Source of the DNA: Sandarakinorhabdus cyanobacteriorum
Lineage (GTDB): Bacteria; Pseudomonadota; Alphaproteobacteria; Sphingomonadales; Sphingomonadaceae
Assembly (NCBI RefSeq): GCF_002251755.1
Contig: NZ_NOXT01000125.1
Location: forward strand, 62,001 to 126,000
Direction: 5' to 3'
Length of the DNA: 64,000 nucleotides
Shown here: positions 49,136 through 64,000 of the stretch, piece after piece
How the letters are laid out: every line of letters starts with the position of its first letter
Numbering within the stretch: position 1 is the stretch's first letter
Notes under the pieces: model-generated
What the model saw: the letters and a program-made list of their open reading frames with translations, nothing else
Database searches by the model: none
Told to the model about the DNA's origin: nothing
Position numbers and translations under genes: made by a program

Positions 49136-49918
49136 ATGGCAACCCGTCCCGACCTTTCCGATCCCGGCCCCTTCGCCACGGCGCTCAAAGCCGCCCGTGC
49201 CAGCCGGCGGGTCAGCCAGCTCGCCCTGTCCCTCGATGCCGGGGTCAGCGCCCGCCACCTTTCCTTCCTCGAATCCGGCCGGGCCAGCCCCAGCCGGGAG
49301 ATGGTGGTCACGCTGGCCGAAGCGCTGGCCCTGCCGCTGGCGCAGCGCAACCATCTGCTCAATGCCGCCGGCTTTGCCTCGGCCTATCCGGCCTCCCCAC
49401 TCTCATCCGAAGCCATCGCGCCGTTCCGCGAGATATTGCAGACGATGATGGCCAACCACGCCCCCTTCCCGGCGCTGCTATGTGACCGGCACTGGAATGT
49501 GCTGGAAGCCAGCCCGTCGGCCGCGGCCATGCTGGCGCCCTTCCTCGATGGCTGGTCGGGCCCGCCCAATGTCTTCCGCCTCACCGCCTGCCACCCACGT
49601 GCGCCCGAATTCATCGCCAACCTGCCCCAGGTGCTGCACGAAAGCCTGGAGCGGCTGGCGCTGGAACAATCGCTGTCGGGCGATGATCCGGTGCTGGCCG
49701 ATCTCATCGCCGTCACCCGCGCCGCCGCCGCCCGCCACCCCTATCGCACCCGCAGCCGCTCGCCCGTGCTGCCGGTCAGCTATCGCGGGCCGAACGGGCT
49801 CCTCAGCTTCCTGTCCATCGTCGCCCAATGCGGCACATCAGAGGATGTGACCGTGCGCGATCTGCGGCTGGAACTGCTCTTCCCCGCCGATGCGGCGACG
49901 CGGGCGGCATTTGCCTGA
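49136..49918 (+). CDS. XRE-family regulator with MmyB-like C-terminal domain
   Basis: The 260-residue protein begins with a Cro/C1-type helix-turn-helix (FATALKAARASRRVSQLALS, then VSARHLSFLESGRASPSREM). An MmyB-like ligand-binding domain follows, marked by LCDRHWNVLEASPSAAAMLAPF and ending VTVRDLRLELLFPADAATRA. MmyB-type domains bind small hydrophobic ligands in related proteins. Target genes are unknown. It stands alone on the plus strand, followed by the intergenic repeat at 49935. Confidence 0.92.
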   Translation: MATRPDLSDPGPFATALKAARASRRVSQLALSLDAGVSARHLSFLESGRASPSREMVVTLAEALALPLAQRNHLLNAAGFASAYPASPLSSEAIAPFREILQTMMANHAPFPALLCDRHWNVLEASPSAAAMLAPFLDGWSGPPNVFRLTACHPRAPEFIANLPQVLHESLERLALEQSLSGDDPVLADLIAVTRAAAARHPYRTRSRSPVLPVSYRGPNGLLSFLSIVAQCGTSEDVTVRDLRLELLFPADAATRAAFA

Positions 49919-50030: not shown

Positions 50031-50987
50031 TCACATCCCAACCACGCACTTCCCCTCAATGCGCCCGGCCCCCATCGCCGCAAAGGCCGCCTTCACCTCG
50101 CCCAGCGGCACCGCCAGCCCGATGTGCGGCCGCATGTGAACGGCGCGCGCATCAATCTCGCGCATGTGCCGGGCGCCGGCGGCCGGGTCCTGCCGGCCCT
50201 GCTCGCCGGCGCGCACGCCGACCAGTTCGATCTCCTTCAACAACAGCCGGTTCAGCGGCACCGCCTCCCCCCGCCCCCCCACAAAGCCGATGATGGCATA
50301 GCGCCCGCCCCGCCGAAGGCACTTGACCAGCGGCAGCACCAGCGGGCCCGCCACGGGATCGAACACCAGATCAATGTCCCTGTGCGGAATCTGCGGCGCC
50401 GCCCGGTCCACCAGCAGCCCCTCATGCGCCCCAGCCGCCTGCGCCAGCGCCAGCCGCGCACTCGAGGACGCCACCGCCACCACATGCGCGCCCAGGTGCA
50501 CGGCCAGCTGCACCGCGGCCAGCCCCATGCCGCCACCGGCCCCCGTCACCAGCACTCGCTCGCCGGCCTTGAGCCGCCCGCGCTCCACCAGCCCGACCCA
50601 GGCGGTCAGCGCCCCAACGGTGAAGGCGGCAGCCTCGGCCATGGTCAGCCCCGCCGGCACGGCCCGCAAGCCGCGCGCCGGCAGCGTGATGCGCTCCGCC
50701 ATCAGCCCGCTGCGCGCGCCCAGCATCACATCGCGCCCCACCCAGTGCTCCGCCCCCGGCCCGGCGGCCAAAACCGTGCCGGTGCCTTCGGTGCCCGGTA
50801 TGAACGGCACGTCGGGCTTGTACTGGTATCCGCCCTGCAGCATCAGAAAATCGGGGAAGTTCAGGCTGGCATGGCGCACCGCCACCAGCACTTCGCCCGG
50901 CCCGGGCGGCGGCGGTTCCGGCCAGTCGTCATGCAACGACAGGCCCGACAGATCGGGCGACAAATGGGTGCAAACGGCAGCGCGCAT
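50031..50987 (-). CDS. Quinone-oxidoreductase-like MDR family enzyme
   Basis: This is a zinc-free medium-chain dehydrogenase/reductase of 318 residues, probably an NADPH-dependent quinone or enone reductase. The N-terminal GroES-like domain contains RHASLNFPDFLMLQGGYQYK and PGTEGTGTVLAAG. The Rossmann fold carries GERVLVTGAGGGMGLAAVQL, and FVGGRGEAVPLNRLLLKEIE is typical of the family. The ATG at 50987 is 11 bases after the stop of the YciI gene, so this is the last gene of the eleven-gene catabolic operon. The natural substrate is unknown. Confidence 0.9.
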   Translation of the reverse strand: MRAAVCTHLSPDLSGLSLHDDWPEPPPPGPGEVLVAVRHASLNFPDFLMLQGGYQYKPDVPFIPGTEGTGTVLAAGPGAEHWVGRDVMLGARSGLMAERITLPARGLRAVPAGLTMAEAAAFTVGALTAWVGLVERGRLKAGERVLVTGAGGGMGLAAVQLAVHLGAHVVAVASSSARLALAQAAGAHEGLLVDRAAPQIPHRDIDLVFDPVAGPLVLPLVKCLRRGGRYAIIGFVGGRGEAVPLNRLLLKEIELVGVRAGEQGRQDPAAGARHMREIDARAVHMRPHIGLAVPLGEVKAAFAAMGAGRIEGKCVVGM

Positions 50988-50998
50988 GGCCGCCGTTA

Positions 50999-51295
50999 TC
51001 AGCCCTGTTTCCAGGTCGCGCCACCCACCCAAGTGCCAGCTGCGGCGCGGAATGGCTCGATGATCACGTCGCTCCACACGCCGGCCGCGCCATAGGGATC
51101 GGCCATGATGAAGGCCCGGGCATCCGCTTCATCCGCCGCCTCGATCACCAACAGCGATCCCGATGGCGCCAGCGGCCCGGCCACGCGATAGCGCGCCATA
51201 TGCGCCTCCACATGCGCCAGATGCGCGGCCAGATGCAGTTGCCTGAGCGGCCCTGCCCCATCCGCATCCACGCAGCGCACGGCAAACAGCGGCAT
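50999..51295 (-). CDS. YciI-like protein
   Basis: This 98-residue protein of the YCII / dimeric alpha-beta barrel fold contains HLAAHLAHVEAHMARYRVAG, PSGSLLVIEAADEADARAFI and MADPYGAAGVW, the usual YciI pattern with the active-site-like His and Asp. Relatives take part in ring-opening or dehydrochlorination steps, but many have no known role. Its ATG overlaps the upstream VOC gene stop by one base (TGATG). It may act on an unstable intermediate of the pathway. Confidence 0.9.
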   Translation of the reverse strand: MPLFAVRCVDADGAGPLRQLHLAAHLAHVEAHMARYRVAGPLAPSGSLLVIEAADEADARAFIMADPYGAAGVWSDVIIEPFRAAAGTWVGGATWKQG

Positions 51296-52188
51296 CAGCC
51301 CAACTCCACCAGTTCCAGCAGCTCGCCCGCCGGGCCGATCACGCAGCCGGCGCGGCGCCCGTCATACAGCGGGCCGTCCCGCCGCACCGGCGGGCTGATC
51401 CAGGTCACATCGCAGGCATCCAGATCGCGCATCGCCAGCGTCACCAGCGCATTGCCCGGCGGCAACATGCCGTCATGGCGCGGGCGCACGCTGGTTTGCG
51501 GCGGATAATCATCTACCTCCACGATCGGCATGCGGCCCTTGCCCACCATCTGCAGCGCGGTGATGAAATCATCCGGCAAGCCAAAGGCGGTGTTGATCAT
51601 CTGATAGGGCAATTCAAACACCGGCCCCAGATCAAGATCGAGCCGGTCGGCATACCAGCGGCAGGTGGCGGCCCGGTCGGGCGTCGCCAGGATGACGATG
51701 AAGATATGATCGGTGATGCTGGCCGCCTTGGGCAGATCCAGCGTGTCCATGTTGGCAAACACCTGGTTCAGGTAGATCATCTCCTGCCCCGGCCCCAACG
51801 CCTGCATCGGCACAAAGGCGTCCATGCCCGGCAGTTGCTTGGGCTCGCCCACGATGGTGAAACCGCTGCCGGCCAGCCGGTCGGGCCAGCCGAACACATC
51901 CTGCACGGTCAGTTCAAACGCCCCCCAGCCGAAACTGGTGGTCGGCCTGAACCCAGCCACATCGGGCTGCTCCACCAGCCGGAACCAGCAGGGCGCACCG
52001 CTTTTCGGCCGCAACACCGCGTGGGCGCGGCCGGCACTGGCCGGGCAGCCCCAAGCCGCCGCCAGGTCGGCCGGCAGCGGGCCCCGGTGCACAAGATCAA
52101 GCTGCAGCGTGCCCTGATAGGCGGCAAGGCCAGCCGCCAGATCGGGCACGACCGACACGCCGCCCAGGATGGTGCCATGCGGGATCAT
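51295..52188 (-). CDS. Double VOC-domain protein (glyoxalase/extradiol dioxygenase fold)
   Basis: The 297-residue protein appears to hold two vicinal-oxygen-chelate domains: the first from GTILGGVSVVPDLAAGLAAY to about 120, and the second from SITDHIFIVILATPDRAATC to GPAGELLELVELG. The second has a His in ITDHIF and a Glu in LLELVE at the usual metal-ligand places. The first is poor in ligands and may be structural. It is embedded in the catabolic operon, overlapping enoyl-CoA hydratase by four bases (ATGA) and YciI by one. It could be a lyase, isomerase or dioxygenase; the reaction cannot be named. Confidence 0.85.
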   Translation of the reverse strand: MIPHGTILGGVSVVPDLAAGLAAYQGTLQLDLVHRGPLPADLAAAWGCPASAGRAHAVLRPKSGAPCWFRLVEQPDVAGFRPTTSFGWGAFELTVQDVFGWPDRLAGSGFTIVGEPKQLPGMDAFVPMQALGPGQEMIYLNQVFANMDTLDLPKAASITDHIFIVILATPDRAATCRWYADRLDLDLGPVFELPYQMINTAFGLPDDFITALQMVGKGRMPIVEVDDYPPQTSVRPRHDGMLPPGNALVTLAMRDLDACDVTWISPPVRRDGPLYDGRRAGCVIGPAGELLELVELG

Positions 52189-52943
52189 GCGCCAAACTCC
52201 GGTTTGCGCTTTTCAACGAACGCCGTGGTGCCCTCGGCAAAATCGGCGCCGGTGAAGGCGGCGGCAAAGATCGCCAGCGTCTCGGCATCGTCCGCCACCT
52301 GGCCATCCAGCACCCGGCGCACAAAGCCCTTGATCGCCCGGGTCGAATGGCGGGAGGCGGCGAGGATGGCATTCACGAAGCCATCGGGCGCATCGGCCAC
52401 CGCCTCGATCAGGCCAATCGCCTGTGCCTCGGCCGCATCGATCAGCGCGCCGGTGAACAGCAGCCGCTTGGCCTGCCCCGGCCCAACGAGATCAACCAGC
52501 AATTTCACATCATGCAGCGGATAGACGAGGCCCAGCTTGGCCGGCGTGATGCCAAAGCGCGCGGCCGGCGTTGCCACCCTCAGATCACAGGCCATCGCCA
52601 GCCCGCAGCCGCCACCCACCGCATCGCCTTCGGCAAAGGCGATGGTGGGCAGCGGAAATCGCGCCAGATCATGCTGCGCCCGGTTGATCGCCGCCTGGTT
52701 GGCGGCGCGCCATTCGGAATCATCCTTGTTGGCGAGCAGCTCGGCGATATCGGCCCCGGCGCAAAAGGCACTGGCCGGCGTTGCCGATTGCAGGATCAGC
52801 AGCTTCACCGCCGGATCAGCCGCCGCCTCTTCGAGCAGGCGCGGCAGCTCGGCCCACATGGCTTGCGTGAAGCTGTTGCGCTTGGCCGCCCGGTCAATCA
52901 GCAACCGGGCAATCGGGCCTTCGATGGCAAGGCGCAGGCTCAT
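52185..52943 (-). CDS. Enoyl-CoA hydratase/isomerase family protein
   Basis: This crotonase-fold protein of 252 residues contains AKRNSFTQAMWAELPRLLEE, the oxyanion-hole segment SAFCAGADIAELLANKDDSE, EGDAVGGGCGLAMACDLRVA and FGITPAKLGLVYPLHDVKLL. A Glu or Asp suitable for hydration is not clear at the usual place, so isomerase or hydrolase activity is also possible. The ATG at 52943 overlaps the upstream deacetylase stop by four bases. In the operon it would act on a CoA thioester made by the ligase or the transferases. Confidence 0.93.
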   Translation of the reverse strand: MSLRLAIEGPIARLLIDRAAKRNSFTQAMWAELPRLLEEAAADPAVKLLILQSATPASAFCAGADIAELLANKDDSEWRAANQAAINRAQHDLARFPLPTIAFAEGDAVGGGCGLAMACDLRVATPAARFGITPAKLGLVYPLHDVKLLVDLVGPGQAKRLLFTGALIDAAEAQAIGLIEAVADAPDGFVNAILAASRHSTRAIKGFVRRVLDGQVADDAETLAIFAAAFTGADFAEGTTAFVEKRKPEFGA

Positions 52944-53809
52944 GCCGGCTGCACCTTGGCAAAATGCCGGGCGATCTCGTGCCGCGTCGTCACCCACACG
53001 CCATCGTGGCTGCGGACATGGCGGAAAAATTCCTCCAGCGCCCAGATGCGCCCCGGCCGGCCGATGATGCGCAGGTGCAGGCCCAGGCTCATCATCTTGG
53101 GATTGCCCTCGACGCCTTCGCGATAAACCTGATCAAAATTGCGCTTGGCATAGGCCAGCCACTGCTCCGGCCCCATCGCCGGGTCGGTCCACATCTTCAT
53201 GTCATTGTTGTCGAGCTGGTAGGGCACGATCACCATCGGCCGTTCCGGCACGGTCGTCTTGTCCCAGAACGGCACATCGCCGCTGTAATCATCCATGTGA
53301 TAATCAAACCCCGCCTCGATCAGCAGGCGGCGGGTGTGATCGGTGTGGAAATAGCGGGAGAGCCAACCATAGGGCCTGACCCCGCAGCTGCGCTGGATGG
53401 ATTCGACGGCCTTGCCGATGAAGTCGCGTTCGGCCTCCTCGTTCAGCTTGAACTGGTGCACCCAGCGCCAGCCATGGCTGACCGGCTCATGGCCCAGTTC
53501 CACGATGGCTTCGGCCAGTTGCGGATGGTTTTCGAGGGACAGGGCCGCAACCGTCCAGCTTGCCTTGATGTCAAAGGCCTTCAGCAGCTTGACCACGCGC
53601 GGCGCGCCGGCCTTGATGCCATAGAGATAATTGCTCTCATTGCCATAATTGCGGATCGGCGCCTTGATGAAGATGCCCAGTTCGTCAACCGGCTCCATCC
53701 CCTTGTCGCCGCGCGCCACCGTCTGTTCGGAGCCTTCCTCGACATTGACAACGACACTGAGGGCCATCTTCGCCCCGCCCGGCCAATCGATGCGTTCCTC
53801 GGCCAACAT
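52940..53809 (-). CDS. Polysaccharide-deacetylase-fold protein of the PuuE / cyclic imidase type
   Basis: This 289-residue NodB-fold protein resembles PuuE allantoinase and cyclic imide hydrolases rather than sugar deacetylases: MALSVVVNVEEGSEQTVARG, LGHEPVSHGWRWVHQFKLNE (the HGWRW motif of this branch) and LSRYFHTDHTRRLL. It is cytoplasmic and has no signal peptide. Members of this branch open cyclic amides or imides, so with the operon's amidase it suggests a ring-nitrogen substrate. It overlaps its neighbours by one and four bases (TGATG before, ATGA after). Confidence 0.88.
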   Translation of the reverse strand: MLAEERIDWPGGAKMALSVVVNVEEGSEQTVARGDKGMEPVDELGIFIKAPIRNYGNESNYLYGIKAGAPRVVKLLKAFDIKASWTVAALSLENHPQLAEAIVELGHEPVSHGWRWVHQFKLNEEAERDFIGKAVESIQRSCGVRPYGWLSRYFHTDHTRRLLIEAGFDYHMDDYSGDVPFWDKTTVPERPMVIVPYQLDNNDMKMWTDPAMGPEQWLAYAKRNFDQVYREGVEGNPKMMSLGLHLRIIGRPGRIWALEEFFRHVRSHDGVWVTTRHEIARHFAKVQPA

Positions 53810-54606
53810 CAGTGCATCTCCTCCCCGCCCGAGACGTTCAGCGCCTCGCCGGTGATGTAGAAGGCGTCATCACTCGCCAGAAAGGCGCAGGCCGCCGCCG
53901 TGTCGCCCGGCAGGCCGGGCCGGCCCATCGGGTTCTTCGCCGCCATGTTGGCGAGATAGGCCTCGACCGTCGGGAAACCGAGCAGTTTCGAGAAATATTC
54001 ATTCTGCATCGCGCCCAGCCCGGTGGTGACATGGTTGGGGCACACGGCATTGACCGTGATGCCATGCGCGCCCAGCTCCACCGCGGTCGCCCGGGTCAGG
54101 CCGATCATGCCATGCTTGGAGCTGACATAGGCTGGCAGATGCGGAAAGCCGGTCTTGGCGGCCTGGCTGGCGATGTTGATGATGCGGCCGCCCTTTCCGG
54201 CGGCAATCATCGCCTTCGCCGCGGCCTGCGTGCAGTAAAAGGCGCCCGACAGGTTGACGGCAATCACCTTCGCCCAGTCGGCCGGATCAACCTCCAGCAT
54301 GGGCTTCATCATGAAGCCGATGCCGGCATTGTTGACGAAAATATCGACGGCGCCGAATTCGGCCACCACCTGATCGACCAGTGCCACGCACTGCGCGGAA
54401 TCGGACACGTCGCATGCAATTGCGGCCACCTTGACGCCACGCGCGGCAAGGTCGGTGGCCACATTTTGCGCTTCGGCATCGATGCTGATATCCGACACGA
54501 CGCAATTGGCGCCCTCATCGGCAAAGCGCCGCAATATGCCCTGGCCCAGGCCCTTCTCCTTGCCCGACCCGGTGACCACGATGGTCTTGCCGGCGAAAAG
54601 GCCCAT
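53809..54606 (-). CDS. SDR-family oxidoreductase
   Basis: This short-chain dehydrogenase/reductase (265 residues) has the cofactor-binding TIVVTGSGKEKGLGQGILRR, an acidic residue after the second strand (VVSDIS) that favours NAD, NNAGIGFMMKPM, the catalytic Ser in INIASQ, YVSSKHG (YxxxK), and the C-terminal FYITGEALNVSGGEEMH. The glycine motif is of the GxxxGxG type with an insertion. The start ATG at 54606 overlaps the HapK gene stop (TGATG). It probably oxidises a hydroxyacyl or alicyclic alcohol intermediate. Confidence 0.94.
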   Translation of the reverse strand: MGLFAGKTIVVTGSGKEKGLGQGILRRFADEGANCVVSDISIDAEAQNVATDLAARGVKVAAIACDVSDSAQCVALVDQVVAEFGAVDIFVNNAGIGFMMKPMLEVDPADWAKVIAVNLSGAFYCTQAAAKAMIAAGKGGRIINIASQAAKTGFPHLPAYVSSKHGMIGLTRATAVELGAHGITVNAVCPNHVTTGLGAMQNEYFSKLLGFPTVEAYLANMAAKNPMGRPGLPGDTAAACAFLASDDAFYITGEALNVSGGEEMH

Positions 54607-54911
54607 CACAGATCCTCCGTCAGGATGAAGCAGGGATTGTCGGTGAACTGGCCAAATGCGGCGGCGACCTTCTGGAACTCCGGGTTCGAAACATCGGCAA
54701 CAAATGCGTCCATCCCCTTGATATCAATCACCTCGATATAATCATAGGGCGGCGCCGCTTCCGATCCGAACAGCCCGGTGGCGCGGTGGACGGTGAAGCT
54801 GTTGACGCTGCCCAGGGCGTTGACGCCGGGAATGTCGGTGCCGCGCGCCCAGGCCTCATAGGCTTGCGCGGAGGCGCCCGGCTTCAGATTGAACAGGCAG
54901 ATGATGCGCAT
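54606..54911 (-). CDS. REDY/HapK-like protein
   Basis: This 101-residue protein (MRIICLFNLKPGASAQAYEA, then YDYIEVIDIKGMDAFVADVS and QFTDNPCFILTEDL) resembles the REDY-like HapK family, small dimeric alpha-beta-barrel proteins originally found in prodigiosin-type gene clusters. A catalytic role has not been established for the family. It sits between the amidase (6-base gap, ribosome-binding site GGGGAG) and the SDR gene (1-base overlap) in the catabolic operon. Confidence 0.82.
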   Translation of the reverse strand: MRIICLFNLKPGASAQAYEAWARGTDIPGVNALGSVNSFTVHRATGLFGSEAAPPYDYIEVIDIKGMDAFVADVSNPEFQKVAAAFGQFTDNPCFILTEDL

Positions 54912-54917
54912 GTCGGG

Positions 54918-56057
54918 TCACTCCCCTCTTGGCGGCTTGTATTGATTGAGCGCGCCATCCACTTGACGCGCAAGGGAAATCAGCCGGCGTTCGGCTTTCG
55001 GCGGGCCGACCAGCTGCACCGAAACCGGCAGGCCATCGTCACTCCAGCCCGATGGCAGCGCGATGGCTGGCAGACCGGCGATATTGGCCAACCCGGTGAA
55101 ATCGGCCTGGTTCACCGGCGCCCGCGTGCCATGGGCAAAGGCCGCTTGCGGCGCCGTGGGCATCAGCAGCACGCCATCATCGCCAAGTGCCTCAATCAGC
55201 GTGGCTTTTACCGCGGCCAGCAAGTCAGGATTGGCCGGCACCGGCTCCAGCGCATCCAGGATGAAGCGCAATTCGGCCGAGGCACTGGCCCGATGCGGCC
55301 CCAATTCGCCGATCAGAAAGCGAACCGACCCGGCCAGCGCGGCAATGCGGATGGCACTGGTATCGGCCGGCAGCCTTAGCCCTGAGACCGGTAGATCAAT
55401 CGCCGCACAGGCCGCCCGATAGCCCGCCAGCACCGCCGGCTCGCAAGCCACACCGGCCAGATCATCCAGCAAAATCAATCGGCTGAACTGTCCATCGCTG
55501 CCACCATTGCCAATCACGTCCCAGGCGTGTTCGATCAGATCCAGATCGCGCGCCAGCGGCCCGATACAGTCCAGCGCCGGGTCGAGATACAACAACCCAT
55601 CCTCGCTGACGGCGCCATGCGTGGGTTTCAGGCCATAGACTCCGCAATAGGCCGCCGGCAGCCGGATGCTGCCCAGCGTGTCGGTGCCCAGGGCCAGATC
55701 AACCAGCCCCGCCGCCACCGCCGCGCCGCTGCCGCCCGACGATCCGCCCGGCGTATGGCCCATGCGGTGCGGATTGTGGGTCCGGCCATAAAATGTGTTG
55801 TCCGTCGTCGCCCCCAGCGCGGCCTCGTGCATGTTGAGGCTGCCCACGATGCTCGCCCCGGCGCGGCGCAATTGTGCAACAACTTCAGCATCCTGGGCCG
55901 CGATAATGTCGCGCAGATGGCCCATCCCACCGGTGTGCGGCAGGCCCGCGACGGCGATGTTGGATTTCACCCCGACCCGCACGCCGGCCAACGGCCCTGC
56001 CCCGCCACCAGGGTCAGCCGCCCGGTCAACGATGGCATTCCAGGGGTCGTGGCTCAC
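54918..56057 (-). CDS. Amidase (amidase signature family)
   Basis: This 379-residue amide hydrolase contains the Ser-cisSer-Lys triad: Lys in VRVGVKSNIAVAG, the cis-Ser in HTPGGSSGGSGAAVAAGLVD, and the nucleophile Ser in LGTDTLGSIRLPAAYCGVYG. FGLKPT-like YGLKPTHGAVS and the C-terminal GLPVSVQLVGPPKAERRLIS are further family marks. It is shorter than GatA and has no adjacent gatC or gatB, so it is a catabolic amidase. It overlaps the ligase gene by four bases. It presumably cleaves an open-chain amide made in the same pathway. Confidence 0.93.
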   Translation of the reverse strand: MSHDPWNAIVDRAADPGGGAGPLAGVRVGVKSNIAVAGLPHTGGMGHLRDIIAAQDAEVVAQLRRAGASIVGSLNMHEAALGATTDNTFYGRTHNPHRMGHTPGGSSGGSGAAVAAGLVDLALGTDTLGSIRLPAAYCGVYGLKPTHGAVSEDGLLYLDPALDCIGPLARDLDLIEHAWDVIGNGGSDGQFSRLILLDDLAGVACEPAVLAGYRAACAAIDLPVSGLRLPADTSAIRIAALAGSVRFLIGELGPHRASASAELRFILDALEPVPANPDLLAAVKATLIEALGDDGVLLMPTAPQAAFAHGTRAPVNQADFTGLANIAGLPAIALPSGWSDDGLPVSVQLVGPPKAERRLISLARQVDGALNQYKPPRGE

Positions 56058-57409
56058 AGCCCCCTCCGGTCAATCAGGCGGATCGGCTTTTGCCGCACAT
56101 CAATCTGGGTATCGGCCGCGGTGGCGCCAGGGGCACACAGCGCCACCTCCACCTCCACCCCCAGCCCGCGCCGCAGCAGCTCGCGCAGCGCCGCCACATC
56201 GCTGCCGCCACGGCTCTCGATCGTCACCAGCATAGTGTCCCGCCCCGTCACATCGCGGGTGAGGATGCAGACATACTCCCCGGTCAGATCGCTGCGGTTC
56301 TCGATCAGGGCGGCAATGGCGTGCGGGAAGATGTTGATTCCGCGCAGTTTCACCATGTTGTCGCTGCGCCCCTTGAAGCCGGCGATGCGGCGGAAGGCGA
56401 TTTCGCCCTGCCCGGCCAACTCGTGGGTGATGTCGTGGGTGTTGAAGCGGATGCAGGGCGCGATATCGTCCTTGAACAGGCAGGTCACCACCATGTCGCC
56501 GGTCTCGCCAAACGCCACCGGTTGGCCGCTCTCCACGTCCAGCAATTCCAGATATTGCGCATCTTCCCAGACATAGAGGCCATTGCGATCCGGCCCCTCG
56601 CCGGCAATCGTGCCAGTGTCCCCCACGCCATACCAATCATAGGCCTTGGCGCCGTGCCAGGCCGCTTCTGTCGCGGCACGATCCTCGGTGCCCAGATGGC
56701 CGATGATCATCCGCAACTTGATGCGATCAAACAGTTTTTCGGCTTCCGCCACCTCGGCCAGCTTGCGGACATAATCGACAAAGCCAACCATCACCGTCAC
56801 GCCGAAATCGGCCATCAGATTGACCTGGGCGGCGCTGCGCGTCTCGATCCCGGTGCCGGCCGACAGGAACAGCGCGTTGGTGAAATGGGTCACCGCCTCG
56901 CGGATATAATGGCCGCCATTGATCATGCCGTGGCCATAGACGGATTGCACCACGTCAGACGGCTGCAGCCCCATCCAGCGATACATGCGGCCCACCAGCA
57001 AATTGGTGACTTCGCGCCCCTTGGGGCCAAACATCAGCGGCTGCGGCCGGCCGGTGGTGCCGCTGGTGGTATGGAACACCACGGGATCAGCACCCCGCCC
57101 ATCGAAATCGCCATAGGGCGGGTGGGCGTTGACCGAGGCCATCAGGTCGGTCTTGTCATACACCGGCAGCTTGGTGATATCGTCCAGGCCCCTGATATCG
57201 CCCGGCTCGATCCCCTTGGCGCCCCACAGCCGCTGATAAAAGGGGATCTGCCAACCACGCGCCATCAACCGGGCAAATTGCGCCTCCTGCAGGCCGCGCA
57301 ATTCATCGCGGCTGATCCGGCGATAACGGTGGGTGAAGTCATCGCCCACCGGATAATCGGCGAGCAACTGCCTGATGTCGACACACTCGAAATAGCTGCG
57401 CTGGCTCAT
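56054..57409 (-). CDS. Phenylacetate-CoA ligase-like acyl-CoA synthetase
   Basis: This 451-residue adenylate-forming enzyme is of the PaaK branch. The P-loop-like motif is FHTTSGTTGRPQPLMFGPKG, then YDWYGVGDTGTIAGEGPDRN (A5-like), RFNTHDITHEL and FKGRSDNMVKLRGINIFPHA (the usual GRSDDMLIVRG-like motif with Asn and Val-Lys changes). It would convert a carboxylic acid to its CoA thioester with ATP. It lies between the PrpD genes and the amidase, with four-base overlaps on both sides, so it is made in fixed proportion with them. The acid is unknown. Confidence 0.92.
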   Translation of the reverse strand: MSQRSYFECVDIRQLLADYPVGDDFTHRYRRISRDELRGLQEAQFARLMARGWQIPFYQRLWGAKGIEPGDIRGLDDITKLPVYDKTDLMASVNAHPPYGDFDGRGADPVVFHTTSGTTGRPQPLMFGPKGREVTNLLVGRMYRWMGLQPSDVVQSVYGHGMINGGHYIREAVTHFTNALFLSAGTGIETRSAAQVNLMADFGVTVMVGFVDYVRKLAEVAEAEKLFDRIKLRMIIGHLGTEDRAATEAAWHGAKAYDWYGVGDTGTIAGEGPDRNGLYVWEDAQYLELLDVESGQPVAFGETGDMVVTCLFKDDIAPCIRFNTHDITHELAGQGEIAFRRIAGFKGRSDNMVKLRGINIFPHAIAALIENRSDLTGEYVCILTRDVTGRDTMLVTIESRGGSDVAALRELLRRGLGVEVEVALCAPGATAADTQIDVRQKPIRLIDRRGL

Positions 57410-58686
57410 GTCGGGTCCGTGAAATAGCCAAGAGGATTGTCGAAAATGCGGGGATCGGCGGACGGGCTGGCCAATTCACGGGCGAGATCCAGCTTGGCCG
57501 CGGTCTGCGCCGGGGTCAGTGGAGCCGCCGGGCTGCCCAGCGTTGCGGGAATGGCAATCCGCTCGCGCCGGCCACCCCCAAAGATCAACGTAATCGCCTG
57601 CGGAAACAAGGCATTGGGGTCGGGATTGCCATCATCCATCAACGCAACCCGGTCGGCGAAGGCCAGCAACGCCGGATCGGCAAACTGCTGGGGCGTGAAA
57701 CAGCGCGGATCGATCCGGCCATCGCGCAGCATCAGGCCAGCAAGGAACGGCAGGCACAGCCTTGCCCAGCTTGGCGTCATGTCTGCTGTCATCGCCCGGC
57801 CCACCAGGCGGCGGATCAGCGGCGGGCAGGCCAATTCCACCCCCACCACATCCTGGCCGGCAAAACCGGCCAGCACAGCCAGCGCGGCATGGCTGGCCCG
57901 GCCAGAGGGATAGGGCTTTACCGACAATTCCGCGATACGCCAGCGCCGGCCCAGGCCCGCCACCAGCGCACCGCTATCGCCCTGATCAAACAGCCGGAAA
58001 TAACCGAACGGCCCGTCCAGCACATCGGCCGGCGCCGGAAAGCCGGCGGCGGCCAGATCACTGGCCAGCACGGCCGCGCGTGCCGCGTTGGCGATCTGGA
58101 ACGGCAGGGCCAGGCTGCCCTCCACATGTGCCTGCATGGTGCCGGCAAGGCTGGAATAGGCAAGGCCCAGCGCGGGCAGCATTGGCGCGCCATCGATCCG
58201 GGCCACCGCCATGGCCGCGCCCATGGCGCCCGCAGTGGCCGGGCGAAAGAATGTCAACGGCGACGTCGCGGCATCACCAAGCCCGGCGGCCACCTCTACC
58301 CCCACCGCAAGCGCGGCCAACGCGTCTTTCGGGTCACAGCCGCCGCGCCGATCAATCGCGGCGCCCAGCGCGGCCGTCACCACGCTCATCGCATGCACCA
58401 CCGCCGGTTCATGCACCGCATCCCATTCCAGGCAGTGGATGCGATAGGCGTTCACAAAGGCGGCTGCGGCGGCCGGCAGCCGCTCTGCCGTGCCGATCAG
58501 CCGGGCGTCATGGCCCTGCCCCATGGCACGCGCCACGGCGAGGATGGCCGCCGCCCCCGGTGCGTCGTGGGCCGCAGCCCCCACCGCCAGCGTATCGGCG
58601 AGGAAATGTCGGGCAATGGCCACCACATCGGCTGGTATCCGATGCTCGGCACCAGCAAATTCGATCAGGCGGCTCACCGCGTTCAC
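57406..58686 (-). CDS. MmgE/PrpD family protein (first of two)
   Basis: This MmgE/PrpD-fold protein (about 426 residues) begins AVSRLIEFAGAEHRIPADVV and has HFLADTLAVGAAAHDAPG and YRIHCLEWDAVHEPAVVHAM, the conserved His/Asp helical segment. Known members are 2-methylcitrate dehydratase, cis-aconitate decarboxylase and iminodisuccinate epimerase. The start is probably the GTG at 58686, whose GTGA overlaps the stop of the other PrpD gene; a GTG at 58695 is an alternative. It is clearly different in sequence from its neighbour, so the pair is not a recent duplication. Confidence 0.9.
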   Translation of the reverse strand: MNAVSRLIEFAGAEHRIPADVVAIARHFLADTLAVGAAAHDAPGAAAILAVARAMGQGHDARLIGTAERLPAAAAAFVNAYRIHCLEWDAVHEPAVVHAMSVVTAALGAAIDRRGGCDPKDALAALAVGVEVAAGLGDAATSPLTFFRPATAGAMGAAMAVARIDGAPMLPALGLAYSSLAGTMQAHVEGSLALPFQIANAARAAVLASDLAAAGFPAPADVLDGPFGYFRLFDQGDSGALVAGLGRRWRIAELSVKPYPSGRASHAALAVLAGFAGQDVVGVELACPPLIRRLVGRAMTADMTPSWARLCLPFLAGLMLRDGRIDPRCFTPQQFADPALLAFADRVALMDDGNPDPNALFPQAITLIFGGGRRERIAIPATLGSPAAPLTPAQTAAKLDLARELASPSADPRIFDNPLGYFTDPT

Positions 58687-59915
58687 GCCGTCCACTCGGT
58701 CAACATGGCGATCACTGCGCCCACATCATCGCCATCCAGCACCAGAGCCGCCGCGCGATCCGCCTCAGACGCTGGCAGCCCGCCCCATGCTGCCAGCATG
58801 GCCAGTTTGCCGGTCAGGCCCTCCACATCCAGCGGCCGTTCCGGATCGCCCAGCGTGTCGACGCGTTCCAGCCCGTTCAGTCGGGCTCCGAAATGCGCCG
58901 GATAGCGCGAAGTGATCGCCTGGCATTCCGCCACCGTCACCTGGGCGCGCAGATCGGCCAGTTCGGCAATCGCAGACAGGGTGAAGTCGGCAGGGGTGGC
59001 CAGCCGCCCGGCCGCGATCACGGCCACCGAATGCTGCAGGCTGAACTTGGCCTCCAGTTCCGTGGCCGGATGCGGCCGATCGCAAAAGCGCAGCGCATCG
59101 GCATAGGTTTCCACCCGGAACGGCGGCTTGAGTGCATTGGCCGCGCGCAGGGCCAGGGCACAATCGATCACCGGATGCGCGTGGCGACAGGCGGCCCATG
59201 GCTTGAAACTCACTTCGGCGATGCGCCATGCACCGGCGTCGGGCAGCGGGCCCGGCGATTGGGTCATCGCCGCAAACAGGCCCTGCGGCCCTTCCAGGAT
59301 GCCAGCCGGCCCGGTGAAGCCGGCCCTTGCCGCCCGTGCGCACCACAAGCCCTCCAGCGCGGCGCGGGTGACATGCAGCTGCTTTGTCATGACATCATCA
59401 TGGCGCATGTGCCACAGCCCGCCGGCCATAGATGCAGCATGGCCCAGCGCGCTGACGGTTTCGCGGTCCCCAAGGCCAAAAATGCTTGCCGCAGCCGCCG
59501 CGGCGCCAATCCCGCCGGCCGTGCTGGTCGGGTGCCATAGGCTGTAATGATGCGCGTCCAGCATCATGCCGATGGCAATCATCGCCTCATATCCGCGCGC
59601 GCCACCGGCCAGCAGCGCGGCCATGCCGGCGCCCGTCTCCCGCGCCGCACTCAGCGCCGCCGGCCAGATCACCGGTCCGGGATGGAGCAGCGCCTGGCGG
59701 TGGACATCATCCATCTCCAGCACATTGCCCAGATAGGCAACACGTTCCAGCACGTCTGGCCCGGCCCGGCGGGCGGCATCAGCCACGGGGTCCAGACGTG
59801 CCCCCGCGACACAGGCAACCCAGTCCAGCAGGTGCAACCGTGCGCGCTTTTCCTCGCTTTCCGCCGCCGGGCGCGCTAAAGTCCGGACAAGTTGGGTCAG
59901 CAGGGCATCGCTCAT
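58683..59915 (-). CDS. MmgE/PrpD family protein (second of two)
   Basis: This 410-residue MmgE/PrpD-fold protein starts MSDALLTQLVRTLARPAAES and contains LHLLDWVACVAGARLDPVAD, YLGNVLEMDDVHRQALLHPG and VSFKPWAACRHAHPVIDCAL. The last is the basic/His cluster expected at the active site. The ATG at 59915 is 33 bases from the divergent GntR gene, so this is the first gene of the eleven-gene operon. With the first PrpD it might form a hetero-oligomer, or the two may act on successive intermediates. Confidence 0.9.
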   Translation of the reverse strand: MSDALLTQLVRTLARPAAESEEKRARLHLLDWVACVAGARLDPVADAARRAGPDVLERVAYLGNVLEMDDVHRQALLHPGPVIWPAALSAARETGAGMAALLAGGARGYEAMIAIGMMLDAHHYSLWHPTSTAGGIGAAAAAASIFGLGDRETVSALGHAASMAGGLWHMRHDDVMTKQLHVTRAALEGLWCARAARAGFTGPAGILEGPQGLFAAMTQSPGPLPDAGAWRIAEVSFKPWAACRHAHPVIDCALALRAANALKPPFRVETYADALRFCDRPHPATELEAKFSLQHSVAVIAAGRLATPADFTLSAIAELADLRAQVTVAECQAITSRYPAHFGARLNGLERVDTLGDPERPLDVEGLTGKLAMLAAWGGLPASEADRAAALVLDGDDVGAVIAMLTEWTA

Positions 59916-59947: not shown

Positions 59948-60700
59948 TTGAACGACATGGCGACCAAGGTTCGCGGGCAAGCGGCGCCGCGCTACCTGCA
60001 ATTGGCGGCCGAACTGCGCGCCGACATATTGGCCGGCCGCTTTGGTGCGGAGCAGCCATTTCCCACCGAAAGCGAATTGTGCTCGGCCCATGGTGTGTCG
60101 CGTTTCACCGTGCGTGAAGCGCTGCGCCGGCTGCAGAATGAAGGGCTTATCGCCCGCCGCCGCGGGTCGGGAACCGTGGTGCAACCGGCCGGCGCACGCG
60201 GCGGCGCCCTGCACCAGCCGCTCAGCAACGTCGGCGAAATCCTGCAATATGCGCGCGACACGCGGGTCACCTACCAACCGGCCGGCACCGGGCCGCTGCC
60301 GGCCTGGCTGGCCACCAGCACCGGCCTGCCCGCCAGCGGCACCTGGACGCTCGTGCACGGGGTGCGCACCACCGCCGATGGTGATCAGCCGATTGCCGCC
60401 ACGATTGCCTATTTCCACGAACTTCTGGGCGACGCGCCGGCGCGGCTTGATCTTGCCGCCGGCACCCTGTTCAGCCAGATCGAGGCGCTGTCGGGCGTCT
60501 CCGTCGGCCAGGTCACCCAGGATATCCAGGCGGTGATCGCCAGCGCCGAGGTTGCCCGGCAACTGGGCATCAAGCGGGGTGCGGCCGTGTTGCGCATCAT
60601 CCGCTGCTACCGCGATGCGCAAGGGCGGGTGTTCGAAATTTCGGTCAGCCATCACCCCGGCGACCGCTTCGCCTATTCGATGCACATCGACGTCGAATAG
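59948..60700 (+). CDS. GntR-family regulator (HutC/UTRA type)
   Basis: The 250-residue protein has a GntR winged helix at the N-terminus (PRYLQLAAELRADILAGRFG, then FPTESELCSAHGVSRFTVRE and ARRRGSGTVVQ) and a UTRA effector domain (FSQIEALSGVSVGQVTQDIQ, then LRIIRCYRDAQGRVFEISVS). It is the only plus-strand gene in the catabolic locus and lies between its two arms, so it probably represses both until a pathway intermediate binds. The TTG at 59948 has a GGGAG site six bases before; an ATG at 59957 is the alternative. I saw no clear operator palindrome in the 32-base divergent gap. Confidence 0.92.
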   Translation: MNDMATKVRGQAAPRYLQLAAELRADILAGRFGAEQPFPTESELCSAHGVSRFTVREALRRLQNEGLIARRRGSGTVVQPAGARGGALHQPLSNVGEILQYARDTRVTYQPAGTGPLPAWLATSTGLPASGTWTLVHGVRTTADGDQPIAATIAYFHELLGDAPARLDLAAGTLFSQIEALSGVSVGQVTQDIQAVIASAEVARQLGIKRGAAVLRIIRCYRDAQGRVFEISVSHHPGDRFAYSMHIDVE

Positions 60701-60705
60701 GCGCA

Positions 60706-61791
60706 TCAGCCTTGCCCCAATCCGGGCACGCTGCCGGGTGTCCACTCCTCCCCGGCAAAGCGGATGGCCGGCGCGATATGATGGCGGCCATCGGCCTCCA
60801 CGATCAGGCCGCGCTCCGCCACATGCGGCTGGGCAAAGGCTTCGGCGAAATCCAGCACCGGGGCATAGGCCACGTCGAGATTGTGCATGAACCGGTCCCA
60901 ATCATCGCGGCTGCGGGTGCGGAAGGTATCGCGCAGGAAGGCGATCAGCGGGGCCTGCGCGGGCCCGGCATCGGCTTCGGCAAGCGGGATGAGATCGGGT
61001 CGGCCCAGCGCCGTGAGCAAGCTGCGCGCAAACTTGATCTCGCGCCCGCCCAGCACAATGTGGCGGCCATCGGCGCACGCATAGACATTGTAGAAGCCAG
61101 CCCCGCCCAGCGAGCGTTGCGCCGCAGAGCTCGGCGCCTCCCCACCGGCCAGCGCGCTGCCGGCGATATGGGCGCACCAGGGCAACAGGCTGTCGAACAT
61201 GGCGATATCCAGATAATCGCCCTGTCCGCTCCTTTCGCGCCCGATCAGCGCCATCAACACCGCGGCCAGGCCGGTCAGGCCAGCGGCGACATCGGCGGCC
61301 GGCACGCCCGGCACCACGGGCGGGCTGCCATCACCGGCATCATTCACGCTCATGAAGCCTGCCATCGCCTGCACCGCCATGTCATGGGCCGGATGCTGGG
61401 CCAACGCCCCCTGCTGGCCAAAGGCCGAGATGGAGCAATAGACGATGCGCGGATTGAGGCTGCGCACATCTTCCCAGCCAAAGCCCAAACGCGCCATCAC
61501 GCCGGGGCGAAAGCCTTCGACGAACACATCGGCATTGCGGATCAGGTCGCGCAGCTCCGCCTTGCCGGCCTCGCTCTTCAGATCGATCACCCGGCTTTGC
61601 TTGCCGCGGTTGAGATTGGCGAACCAGATGCTCTGGCCATTTTCAAACGGCGCCTGCGCCCGGGCGGGATCGCCAGCGGCCGGCTCCACCTTGATCACCT
61701 CGGCCCCTTGATCGGCCATCATCACGGTCAGCATCGGGCCAGGCAGAAACTGCGACAGGTCAACAACGCGGATGCCGGAAAGCTTGCCCAT
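60706..61791 (-). CDS. Family III CoA-transferase (CaiB/BaiF)
   Basis: This 361-residue CoA-transferase begins GIRVVDLSQFLPGPMLTVMM, with ADQGAEVIKVEPAAGDPARA, and FANLNRGKQSRVIDLKSEAG. The catalytic Asp is in GDYLDIAMFDSLL. It moves CoA between carboxylic acids in the cytosol. A much longer frame open to 62346 runs through the next gene and is not used; the ATG at 61791 begins 8 bases after the upstream CoA-transferase stop. It and its neighbour may work together or on different acids of the same pathway. Confidence 0.94.
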   Translation of the reverse strand: MGKLSGIRVVDLSQFLPGPMLTVMMADQGAEVIKVEPAAGDPARAQAPFENGQSIWFANLNRGKQSRVIDLKSEAGKAELRDLIRNADVFVEGFRPGVMARLGFGWEDVRSLNPRIVYCSISAFGQQGALAQHPAHDMAVQAMAGFMSVNDAGDGSPPVVPGVPAADVAAGLTGLAAVLMALIGRERSGQGDYLDIAMFDSLLPWCAHIAGSALAGGEAPSSAAQRSLGGAGFYNVYACADGRHIVLGGREIKFARSLLTALGRPDLIPLAEADAGPAQAPLIAFLRDTFRTRSRDDWDRFMHNLDVAYAPVLDFAEAFAQPHVAERGLIVEADGRHHIAPAIRFAGEEWTPGSVPGLGQG

Positions 61792-61799
61792 CGCCGGCC

Positions 61800-63002
61800 T
61801 CACACGATCCCGGCGCGTTTCAGATCGGCCACCTCGTCGGCCCCCAGGCCAAGATCGGCCAGGATGGCATCGGTGTCGGCCCCCAGCAGCGGCGCGGGCC
61901 GGTTGGGCAGGCGCGCACCGCCGATGCGAATCGGGTTGGCCAGCACCTGCATGCCGGGCCGGTCGGGGTGATCCACACTGTCGCGCATGCCGGTGCGCTG
62001 CAGCCAGGGATTGTCCAGCGCCTGATCCAGGCCATAGACCGGTGCCACCGGCACATGCCCGGCCAGCAGAGCCTGCCAATGGGCCATCGGCTGCGATTGG
62101 AAAATCACGTCCAGCGCGGCGGTTAGCGCCTCGCGGTTGGCCAGCCGGCTCTTGTTGCTGGCAAAGCGCGGATCGCTGGCCAGATCGGGATGGCCGATCC
62201 GTTCGACCATGATCGTCCAGAATTTCGGCAGCTGGCACATCACGAACATCCAGCCATCCGCCGCCTTGAACATCTGGCTGGGCGTGGCGGTGGGATGGGC
62301 GCTGCGCGGGGTGCGTTCCGTCACATCGCCTTCGTTCATGTACCATAGCGCCGGATAGCTGGTCTGGTGCACGGCCGCCGACAGAAGATCGGTATCGACA
62401 TCGCAGCCAACGCCGCTGCGCTGCGCATCCACCAGCGCCGCCAGCAGGCCGATGGCGTGGATGGTGCCGGTGATGAAATCCACCATCGACAGGCCCATGC
62501 GCTGCGGCTCACCGCCCGGATCGCCGGTCAACAGGCAATAACCCGCCTCAGCCTGCATCAGATAGTCATAACCCGGCCAGCGCGCCCGTTCATTGTCGCG
62601 GCCATAGGCCGACAGGTGCGCACACACGATGGCAGGATTGATGTCCTTCAGCGCGTCATGGGTCAGCCCCAGCCGCGCCGGCAGATCGCCGCGCATATTG
62701 TTGGCCACCGCGTGCGCCGTGCCGGCCAGCTTGCGAAAGATGGCCTGGCCTTCTGGCGCATTCAGATCCAGCGTCAGGCTGCGTTTGTTGAGGTTGAAGG
62801 CCTGGAAATACAGGCTTTCGCCCTCGCGCAGATAATGCGGCCCCACCGCGCGCGCCGTATCGCCCCCCTTGCCTGGCGGGCCTGGCGGCTCGATCTTGAT
62901 CACATCGGCGCCAAGCTGGGCGAGGAACATGCTGCCATAAGGGCCAGCGCCATATTGTTCGGCGCTGATGATCCGGAAGCCTGAGAGCGGAAGATGGGGC
63001 AT
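61800..63002 (-). CDS. Family III CoA-transferase-like protein with altered active-site Asp
   Basis: This 400-residue CaiB/BaiF-fold protein contains GFRIISAEQYGAGPYGSMFL, AQLGADVIKIEPPG, FNLNKRSLTLDL and GHPDLASDPRFASNKSRLAN. At the place of the catalytic Asp (found in the next gene as IAMFDSLL) it reads VDTDLLSAAVHQTS, so the residue is Ser by this alignment. It may therefore have an altered mechanism or be a partner subunit. The ATG at 63002 overlaps the acyl-CoA dehydrogenase stop by one base (TGATG). Confidence 0.9.
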   Translation of the reverse strand: MPHLPLSGFRIISAEQYGAGPYGSMFLAQLGADVIKIEPPGPPGKGGDTARAVGPHYLREGESLYFQAFNLNKRSLTLDLNAPEGQAIFRKLAGTAHAVANNMRGDLPARLGLTHDALKDINPAIVCAHLSAYGRDNERARWPGYDYLMQAEAGYCLLTGDPGGEPQRMGLSMVDFITGTIHAIGLLAALVDAQRSGVGCDVDTDLLSAAVHQTSYPALWYMNEGDVTERTPRSAHPTATPSQMFKAADGWMFVMCQLPKFWTIMVERIGHPDLASDPRFASNKSRLANREALTAALDVIFQSQPMAHWQALLAGHVPVAPVYGLDQALDNPWLQRTGMRDSVDHPDRPGMQVLANPIRIGGARLPNRPAPLLGADTDAILADLGLGADEVADLKRAGIV

Positions 63003-64000
63003 CAGGCCGGGTTCATCTTCAGCCACTGCTTGGCAATGATCATCCGCTGCATCTCGTTGGTGCCCTCGCCAATGCACATCAGCAGCGAATCCCGGTAATA
63101 ACGCTCGATGTCATACTCCTTGCTGTAGGAGTAGCCGCCATAGATGCGCATTGCCTCCTGGCTGTTTTCCACCGCCGCCTCGCTGGCGAAATATTTGGCC
63201 ATGCCGGCTTCCATGTCGCAGCGGTCGCCCCGGTCATAGGCTTCCGCGGCATCCAGCGTCAGCAGCCGGGCGGCGCGGGCGCGGGTCACCATTTCGCCCA
63301 GCTTCAACTGGATGGCCTGATGCTCGGCGATCGGCTTGCCCATGGTGTGACGTTCCTGGGCATATTGGGTGGCCAGCCTGAGCGAGCCTTCTGAAAGGCC
63401 AACCCCGCGCGCCGCCACATTGATGCGGCCCAGCTCCAGCCCGCCGGTGGCCTGGAAGAATCCCTGGCCCTCCACCCCGCCAATCAGCTGGTCGGCCGGA
63501 GCGCGATAATCCTGGAACACCAGTTCGGCGCTGTCGATCGACTTGTAACCCAGCTTGTCGAACTTCTTGCCGGTGGTGAAGCCATCGCGCTTGTCGGCGA
63601 TGAAAAGGCTCATCCCCTTGTAACGCGGGCTGGCATCGGGATCGGTCTTGACCAGCAGGGCAAAGCAGCTGCCGTTCAGGGCATTGGAAATCCAGGTCTT
63701 GGTGCCATTGATCACATAATGGTCGCCATCGCGGCGGGCCACGGTGCGGATCGCCTGCAGATCGGTGCCGGCGTTGGGCTCGGTCAGGGCCAGGCCGCCG
63801 CGGATCTCGCCGGTGGCGAATTTCGGCAGCCACTTGGCCTTCTGCTCCGGCGTGCCAAAACGCTCCACGGCGGCGGCCATGATCAGGTGGGAATTGAAAA
63901 TGCCGGTGATCGCCATCCAGTAACTGGAGATCTTCATCACGATCTTGGCATAGGTCGTCGCCGGCAGCCCAAGCCCGCCATATTGCTGGCCGATGGTGGC
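63002..64000 (-). CDS. Acyl-CoA dehydrogenase (3' part; gene continues beyond the window)
   Basis: This flavin-dependent acyl-CoA dehydrogenase is open at the right edge, so its N-terminal part is missing. It shows GLALTEPNAGTDLQAIRTVA (FAD-binding signature), the segment YVINGTKTWISNALNG, FDKLGYKSIDSAELVFQDYR and the C-terminal MRIYGGYSYSKEYDIERYYR, then EGTNEMQRMIIAKQWLK. A possible catalytic base is the Glu of IGEGTNEMQ. The reading frame runs without a break to base 64000. It is coupled to the two CoA-transferase genes that follow. Confidence 0.94.
   Translation of the reverse strand, partial: ATIGQQYGGLGLPATTYAKIVMKISSYWMAITGIFNSHLIMAAAVERFGTPEQKAKWLPKFATGEIRGGLALTEPNAGTDLQAIRTVARRDGDHYVINGTKTWISNALNGSCFALLVKTDPDASPRYKGMSLFIADKRDGFTTGKKFDKLGYKSIDSAELVFQDYRAPADQLIGGVEGQGFFQATGGLELGRINVAARGVGLSEGSLRLATQYAQERHTMGKPIAEHQAIQLKLGEMVTRARAARLLTLDAAEAYDRGDRCDMEAGMAKYFASEAAVENSQEAMRIYGGYSYSKEYDIERYYRDSLLMCIGEGTNEMQRMIIAKQWLKMNPA

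Follow-up and report, generated by a model that had tools for sequence, protein, structure and literature searches.

Which compound is broken down by an eleven-gene operon of Sandarakinorhabdus cyanobacteriorum (Sphingomonadaceae) that combines a PuuE-like hydrolase and an amidase with two MmgE/PrpD proteins and enzymes of coenzyme A (CoA) chemistry? The operon occupies positions 50031-59915 (minus strand) of a stretch of 64,000 nucleotides (the window; positions 62,001 to 126,000 of contig NZ_NOXT01000125.1), which is part of a 3.53-Mb genome in 130 contigs. We propose that it belongs to a GntR-controlled catabolic regulon in which a nitrogen-containing ring is opened and the product enters the methylsuccinate/itaconate sequence, a reading to which we give an even chance; the ring product fed into that route is probably a branched four-carbon diacid.

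The connection to a known route comes from a second operon. The GntR-family regulator with a UTRA domain, the proposed regulator of the regulon (59957-60700, plus strand; Pfam GntR 3e-21, UTRA 3e-18), stands between the two operons, and its start codon and that of PrpD1, the first gene of the eleven, are divergent and 41 bases apart. On the minus strand beyond it are encoded the class III CoA-transferases CoT1 (60706-61803; Pfam CoA_transf_3, 1e-103) and CoT2 (61800-63002; 2e-107) and an acyl-CoA dehydrogenase (ACD; 63002-64000, continuing to about 64195 past the window end), which we propose to be an (alkyl)methylsuccinyl-CoA dehydrogenase. Outside the window, an Ich-like MaoC hydratase (contig positions 126216-126719, minus strand) lies upstream of ACD and a Ccl-like HpcH lyase (126712-127551, minus strand) upstream of MaoC. 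A preliminary description of the eleven genes had held that the mix fits no pathway that can be named; this has to be revised, since the co-conserved adjoining operon corresponds to the published methylsuccinate/itaconate module, which comprises Ich, Mcd, a class III CoA transferase, Ccl and an MmgE/PrpD protein (PMC12290011). Methylsuccinate, too, is degraded by the itaconate cluster (ich, mcd, mmgE/msi, ict, ccl) that saprophytic bacteria carry, with MmgE/PrpD acting as methylsuccinate isomerase and ACD as methylsuccinyl-C4-CoA dehydrogenase, and the environmental origin of methylsuccinate was, according to the authors, unclear until recently (PMC12290011). Here, as there, Ich-like MaoC, ACD, class III CoA transferase, Ccl-like HpcH and MmgE/PrpD are encoded together and PrpD1 retains the catalytic His and Tyr; the present locus differs in that a pair of diverged PrpDs takes the place of the single isomerase, that there are two CoA transferases, and that a block (PuuE-like, amidase, PaaK-like, short-chain dehydrogenase/reductase (SDR), HapK-like, enoyl-CoA hydratase and VOC) is added under a GntR regulator. 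The ACD shares 63-74% identity with its counterparts in clusters of Azospirillum, Pseudosulfitobacter, Tistrella and Variovorax, and the MaoC of a relative (85% identical to the MaoC of this genome) and CoT2 are 59-72% and 50-56% identical, respectively, to proteins of related plasmid clusters. One of these is an Azospirillum Ccl-Ich-PrpD-ACD cluster, to whose transferase CoT2 is 50% identical and which contains in addition a GntR regulator, an amidase and a C4-dicarboxylate TRAP transporter.

PrpD1 (58683-59915, minus strand; Pfam 7e-38) and PrpD2 (57406-58686, minus strand; Pfam MmgE_PrpD_N 3e-35) are the only PrpD genes found in the genome. In PrpD1 the residues H78, Y124, H128, K178 and K238 are invariant (57/57) and align with the catalytic His and Tyr of IDS epimerase and with site residues of ACOD1/IRG1; its sequence has what marks the two-base site of methylsuccinate isomerase, i.e., the catalytic His and Tyr plus carboxylate-binding residues. 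PrpD2 keeps D92, H101 and K260 and lacks equivalents of human ACOD1 His159 and Lys207 in all 59 sequences aligned. The known MmgE/PrpD substrates are all C4 1,4-dicarboxylates (PMC12290011), and a five-membered imide would fit this substrate type because its opening gives a C4 1,4-dicarboxylate.

The two predicted C-N hydrolases are also well preserved. The PuuE-like protein (52940-53809, minus strand; Pfam Polysacc_deac_1), a polysaccharide-deacetylase-family hydrolase and the proposed cyclic imidase, aligns over its length to the PuuE structure 3cl6 (E 7e-64) with the motifs NxEEGxE, GHExxSHGxRW and GLHxRxIGRPxR kept, and the motif positions checked are invariant in 75 orthologs, except for His107 (74/75) and Trp114 (Trp or Tyr). 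The short amidase-signature amidase (54918-56057, minus strand; Pfam Amidase 1.6e-76), the proposed half-amidase, has its catalytic Lys, cis-Ser and Ser at K31, S106 and S130, all present in 64 of 64 aligned sequences. For the PuuE-like, PrpD and amidase proteins alike, the fold is settled by homology to known structures. A fungal precedent exists in the nicotinate breakdown of Aspergillus nidulans, in which the cyclic imidase HxnM, related to HpPgdA and PuuE, is followed by HxnN, an amidase related to fatty acid amide hydrolase; HxnM, however, is described as structurally closest to HpPgdA, whereas the protein described here is nearer PuuE, and the fungal route has a glutarimide-type substrate and no methylsuccinate-type module (PMC9304392). 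The preliminary description had suggested the opening of a cyclic imide or lactam followed by CoA-dependent oxidation. PuuE homology, the amidase catalytic set and the HxnM/HxnN precedent speak for this proposal, but its C-N cleavage steps are predictions drawn from homology and intact motifs.

The arrangement of the genes is widely conserved. Among 80 named loci, mostly from Sphingomonadales with two from Steroidobacter relatives, the order ACD, CoT2, CoT1, GntR (divergent), PrpD1, PrpD2, PaaK, amidase, HapK, SDR, PuuE, enoyl-CoA hydratase, VOC is found in 67-73 (GntR in 67, PaaK-like in 71, HapK-like, enoyl-CoA hydratase and VOC in 72 each, SDR in 73), while ACD, often lost to the locus edge, is present in 64. 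Chance is excluded as an explanation of the arrangement because tens of genomes show the same order, with protein identities of 45-93%. Cultured strains with the locus include Blastomonas natatoria DSM 3183, Sphingobium chungbukense DJ77 and Novosphingobium taihuense CGMCC 1.3432. HpcH lies upstream in 12 and MaoC in 11 of 20 relatives. These conserved neighbours are a sample, and the relatives' genes were called by a simple script based on third-position G+C, so that start errors occur. Within 301 genomes of the family, this one counted, 39 carry cluster-type PuuE orthologs at 70-88% identity, and the next PuuE homologs beyond the ortholog group are only 36-40% identical. Other alphaproteobacteria have rearranged subsets of the cluster, some near TRAP or ABC transporters, in which PuuE, PaaK and amidase remain together despite the loss of other genes. 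A search among plasmids for one of catabolic function whose substrate is known led to a plasmid of Tistrella mobilis that carries the cluster in split versions, and to no substrate; a Variovorax PaaK-like match was rejected as a related cluster, its neighbourhood being unrelated. In metagenome-assembled genomes of Sandarakinorhabdus and in one of Sphingomonadales (L128, L130, L134), the surroundings of the PuuE-like gene include three conserved genes on the opposite strand, whose products look by eye like a Nudix hydrolase, an acyl-CoA dehydrogenase and a phosphotransferase.

The regulon extends further than the two operons. Initial HutC-type operator patterns found few sites; a palindrome, TTGTCCGGACAA, was derived from those sites, hence chosen with the data in view, and then tested on an extended region of 53 kb and on whole genomes. 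The perfect palindrome occurs in 8 copies in this genome (about 0.1 expected from base composition) and in 3-9 copies in each of 19 cluster-bearing relatives, in which a reversed control pattern gave 2 matches in all; among 11 relatives picked as being without the cluster, 9 have no copy and 2 have one. With up to two mismatches, 7 sites fall in the extended region, compared with 0.41 per 20 kb, i.e., about 1.1 for that length, in shuffled sequence. The palindrome lies at the promoters of HpcH/DUF1838 and of the TonB-dependent receptors TBDR1 and TBDR2, and a degenerate version is found where PrpD1 begins: AAGTCCGGACAA (two mismatches) occupies 59879-59890 in the 5' end of the gene; two very close relatives (L056 and L057) carry TTGTCCGGACAT at the equal position. 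Other copies are found beside TonB receptor genes, beside a methyltransferase gene and beside two gene series: one begins with an isochorismatase-family gene and continues with two further PuuE-like genes and an aldehyde dehydrogenase gene, the other runs from an alpha/beta hydrolase gene through LeuC, LeuD and an HMG-CoA-lyase-like gene to a third CoA transferase. The palindrome marks a regulon composed of the cluster, TonB receptors, two more PuuE-like hydrolases, isochorismatase, LeuC/LeuD and an HMG-CoA-lyase-like enzyme, and we infer from the co-occurrence that the GntR/UTRA protein binds TTGTCCGGACAA as its putative operator.

In a comparison of 13 genomes (12 relatives and this one) made on assembled stretches of uneven coverage with some gaps, all 13 contain the isochorismatase, LeuC, methyltransferase and aldehyde dehydrogenase clusters and 12 contain one PuuE-like paralog. 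That paralog, counted only at 70% identity or above in sets compiled by hand from two tables, is present in 36 of the 39 genomes with cluster-type PuuE and in 18 of the 262 others (Fisher p 1.4e-29, uncorrected for relatedness). Genomes without the cluster can have it too, often next to isochorismatase, HMG-CoA-lyase-like and LeuCD genes. A comparison of the TonB receptor families indicated no substrate. The wider regulon also includes a nitrilase-family protein; in one locus (L004:13314-14360) its catalytic Cys appears by eye to be replaced (ASEEILYPE). In other sphingomonads, where the studied cluster was not found (L252-L259, L263), HMG-CoA-lyase-like, isochorismatase, two PuuE-like, LeuC and LeuD genes form a compact unit that is present whole or in part. 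At L226:6934-8987 a LeuC/LeuD-type pair lies by a palindrome-tagged promoter together with an HMG-CoA-lyase-like gene and a CoA transferase, which suggests that the pair is a catabolic hydratase.

The operon itself consists of eleven head-to-tail genes, in the order PrpD1, PrpD2, PaaK-like ligase, amidase, HapK/EthD-like, SDR, PuuE-like, enoyl-CoA hydratase, VOC, YciI and MDR, and family searches bore out the open reading frames and families of the preliminary description as well as its PrpD1 start (ATG at 59915). It had counted nine of the ten junctions as tight; with gene starts read from the sequence all ten are, namely overlaps of 4, 4 and 4 bases, a gap of 6, overlaps of 4, 1, 4, 4 and 1, and a gap of 11. 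From such packing the preliminary description predicted that the proteins would be made in fixed proportion. The PrpD2 frame opens at 58695 and a GTG start at 58686 gives the 4-base overlap. The remaining genes, all on the minus strand, encode a PaaK-like acyl-CoA ligase (56054-57409; Pfam AMP-binding_C_2; TIGR02155 156 bits, below cut-off), a HapK/RedY-like small protein (54606-54911; Pfam HapK 1e-12; PDB 2jdj), the SDR (53809-54609; Pfam adh_short_C2 1e-60), a protein of the enoyl-CoA hydratase/isomerase family (52185-52943; start MSLRLAIEG, in an ATGA overlap with the PuuE-like gene; Pfam ECH_1 7e-39), a VOC (glyoxalase/dioxygenase superfamily) protein (51295-52188; Pfam Glyoxalase), a YciI-family protein (50999-51295; Pfam YCII) and a quinone-oxidoreductase-like MDR protein (50031-50987, ATG at 50987; Pfam ADH_zinc_N/ADH_N). 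YciI has an ortholog above 45% identity in 26 of the 80 loci and is codirectional in about one-third. A codirectional MDR ortholog is found only in L056 and L057, with weak matches (30-39%) on the opposite strand elsewhere; the MDR gene is a local addition to the conserved operon. The eleven-gene unit is therefore an operon in this genome, but its last member is limited to these three, and the operon, though real, is not free-standing, as the regulator, the second operon and the shared operator belong to the same unit. Just past the last gene lies a regulator with a helix-turn-helix and an MmyB-like ligand-binding domain (49136-49918, plus strand), with orthologs at the same position in L056 and L057. 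Elsewhere in the window, positions 30003-41420 (minus strand) form one open frame of about 3800 codons with a strong third-position G+C bias.

A plausible sequence of steps can be put together from these assignments. The PuuE-like enzyme would hydrolyse the ring of a C-substituted cyclic imide or lactam to a half-amide, from which the amidase would free ammonia to leave a substituted succinate-type 1,4-dicarboxylate. To judge from its residues, PrpD1 would epimerise or isomerise this diacid by a two-base mechanism, perhaps paired with PrpD2, whose site is partly lost; a PrpD1-PrpD2 heteromer is our conjecture. By homology, the class III CoA transferases, ACD, the Ich-like hydratase and the Ccl-like lyase would convert the diacid into a 2-oxo acid and an acyl-CoA, and the PaaK-like ligase, enoyl-CoA hydratase, SDR, HapK-like and VOC proteins most likely process the substrate side chain. 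Several observations weigh against this scheme. It does not need the PaaK-like ligase. The best NCBIfam matches of the lower enzymes fall below cut-off (HpcH to RipC/Ccl, 213.5 bits with a cut-off of 375; the MaoC of the relative to RipB/Ich, 242 with a cut-off of 340). PrpD1 and PrpD2 are only about 28-31% identical to the PrpDs of the Azospirillum and Pseudosulfitobacter modules, and the diacid may therefore not be methylsuccinate. In several related genera a PuuE-like gene of 71-76% identity stands unaccompanied by the other cluster genes, so that its product need not pass to this amidase. Finally, PuuE relatives can be inactive on allantoin, as is HpPgdA (PMC3084791).

The last point also favours a nitrogen-free route, which we consider unlikely though worth serious attention. 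A lactone, ester or aromatic acid would be handled by the PaaK-like ligase, enoyl-CoA hydratase, SDR and VOC proteins, the PuuE-like protein and amidase would serve as lactonase or esterase, and the product would drain through the methylsuccinate/itaconate module, itself a nitrogen-free C5-diacid route (PMC12290011); relatives of PaaK usually use aryl acids. Two intact C-N hydrolase families, invariant in the core, argue against it, as do the additional PuuE-like, isochorismatase and nitrilase-family proteins of the wider regulon and the retention of PuuE, PaaK and amidase together in other alphaproteobacteria. A general acyl-CoA metabolism or detoxification cluster that serves several substrates and no dedicated ring compound is rather improbable: its parts do come from broad families and the PuuE-like gene is also met alone among unrelated genes, but the tight gene order, the dedicated regulator and a regulon-specific operator shared with TonB receptors point to one inducing compound. 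A purine or ureide pathway, in which the PuuE-like protein would act in uric acid breakdown as an enzyme of the allantoinase type, is very improbable, for although the protein shares fold and motifs with PuuE allantoinase, its best NCBIfam and PDB match, it scores 244.3 bits on TIGR03212 (cut-off 424.6) and forms the separate orthologous group described above, the cluster has no purine genes and no uricolytic partner gene was found, OHCU decarboxylase being absent from 23 of 23 cluster-bearing genomes and detected in control genomes.

Within the proposed opening of a nitrogen ring, a more specific substrate can be imagined, namely tetrapyrrole ring fragments from chlorophyll, heme or bilins. 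The regulon would mineralise alkyl maleimides or succinimides imported through TonB receptors, opened by several PuuE-like imidases and deamidated to alkyl-C4-diacids, which would enter two parallel CoA modules (Ich/Ccl and LeuCD/HMG-CoA-lyase-like); we regard this as a long shot. The open-access literature searched (for the gene combination, DUF1838, and bacterial maleimide or bilin breakdown clusters) held no description of the locus. A conserved, dedicated regulon of this kind, new to that literature, would link C-N ring hydrolysis to a methylsuccinate module, and it offers a few enzymes, a candidate operator and strains in culture with which the substrate can be sought.

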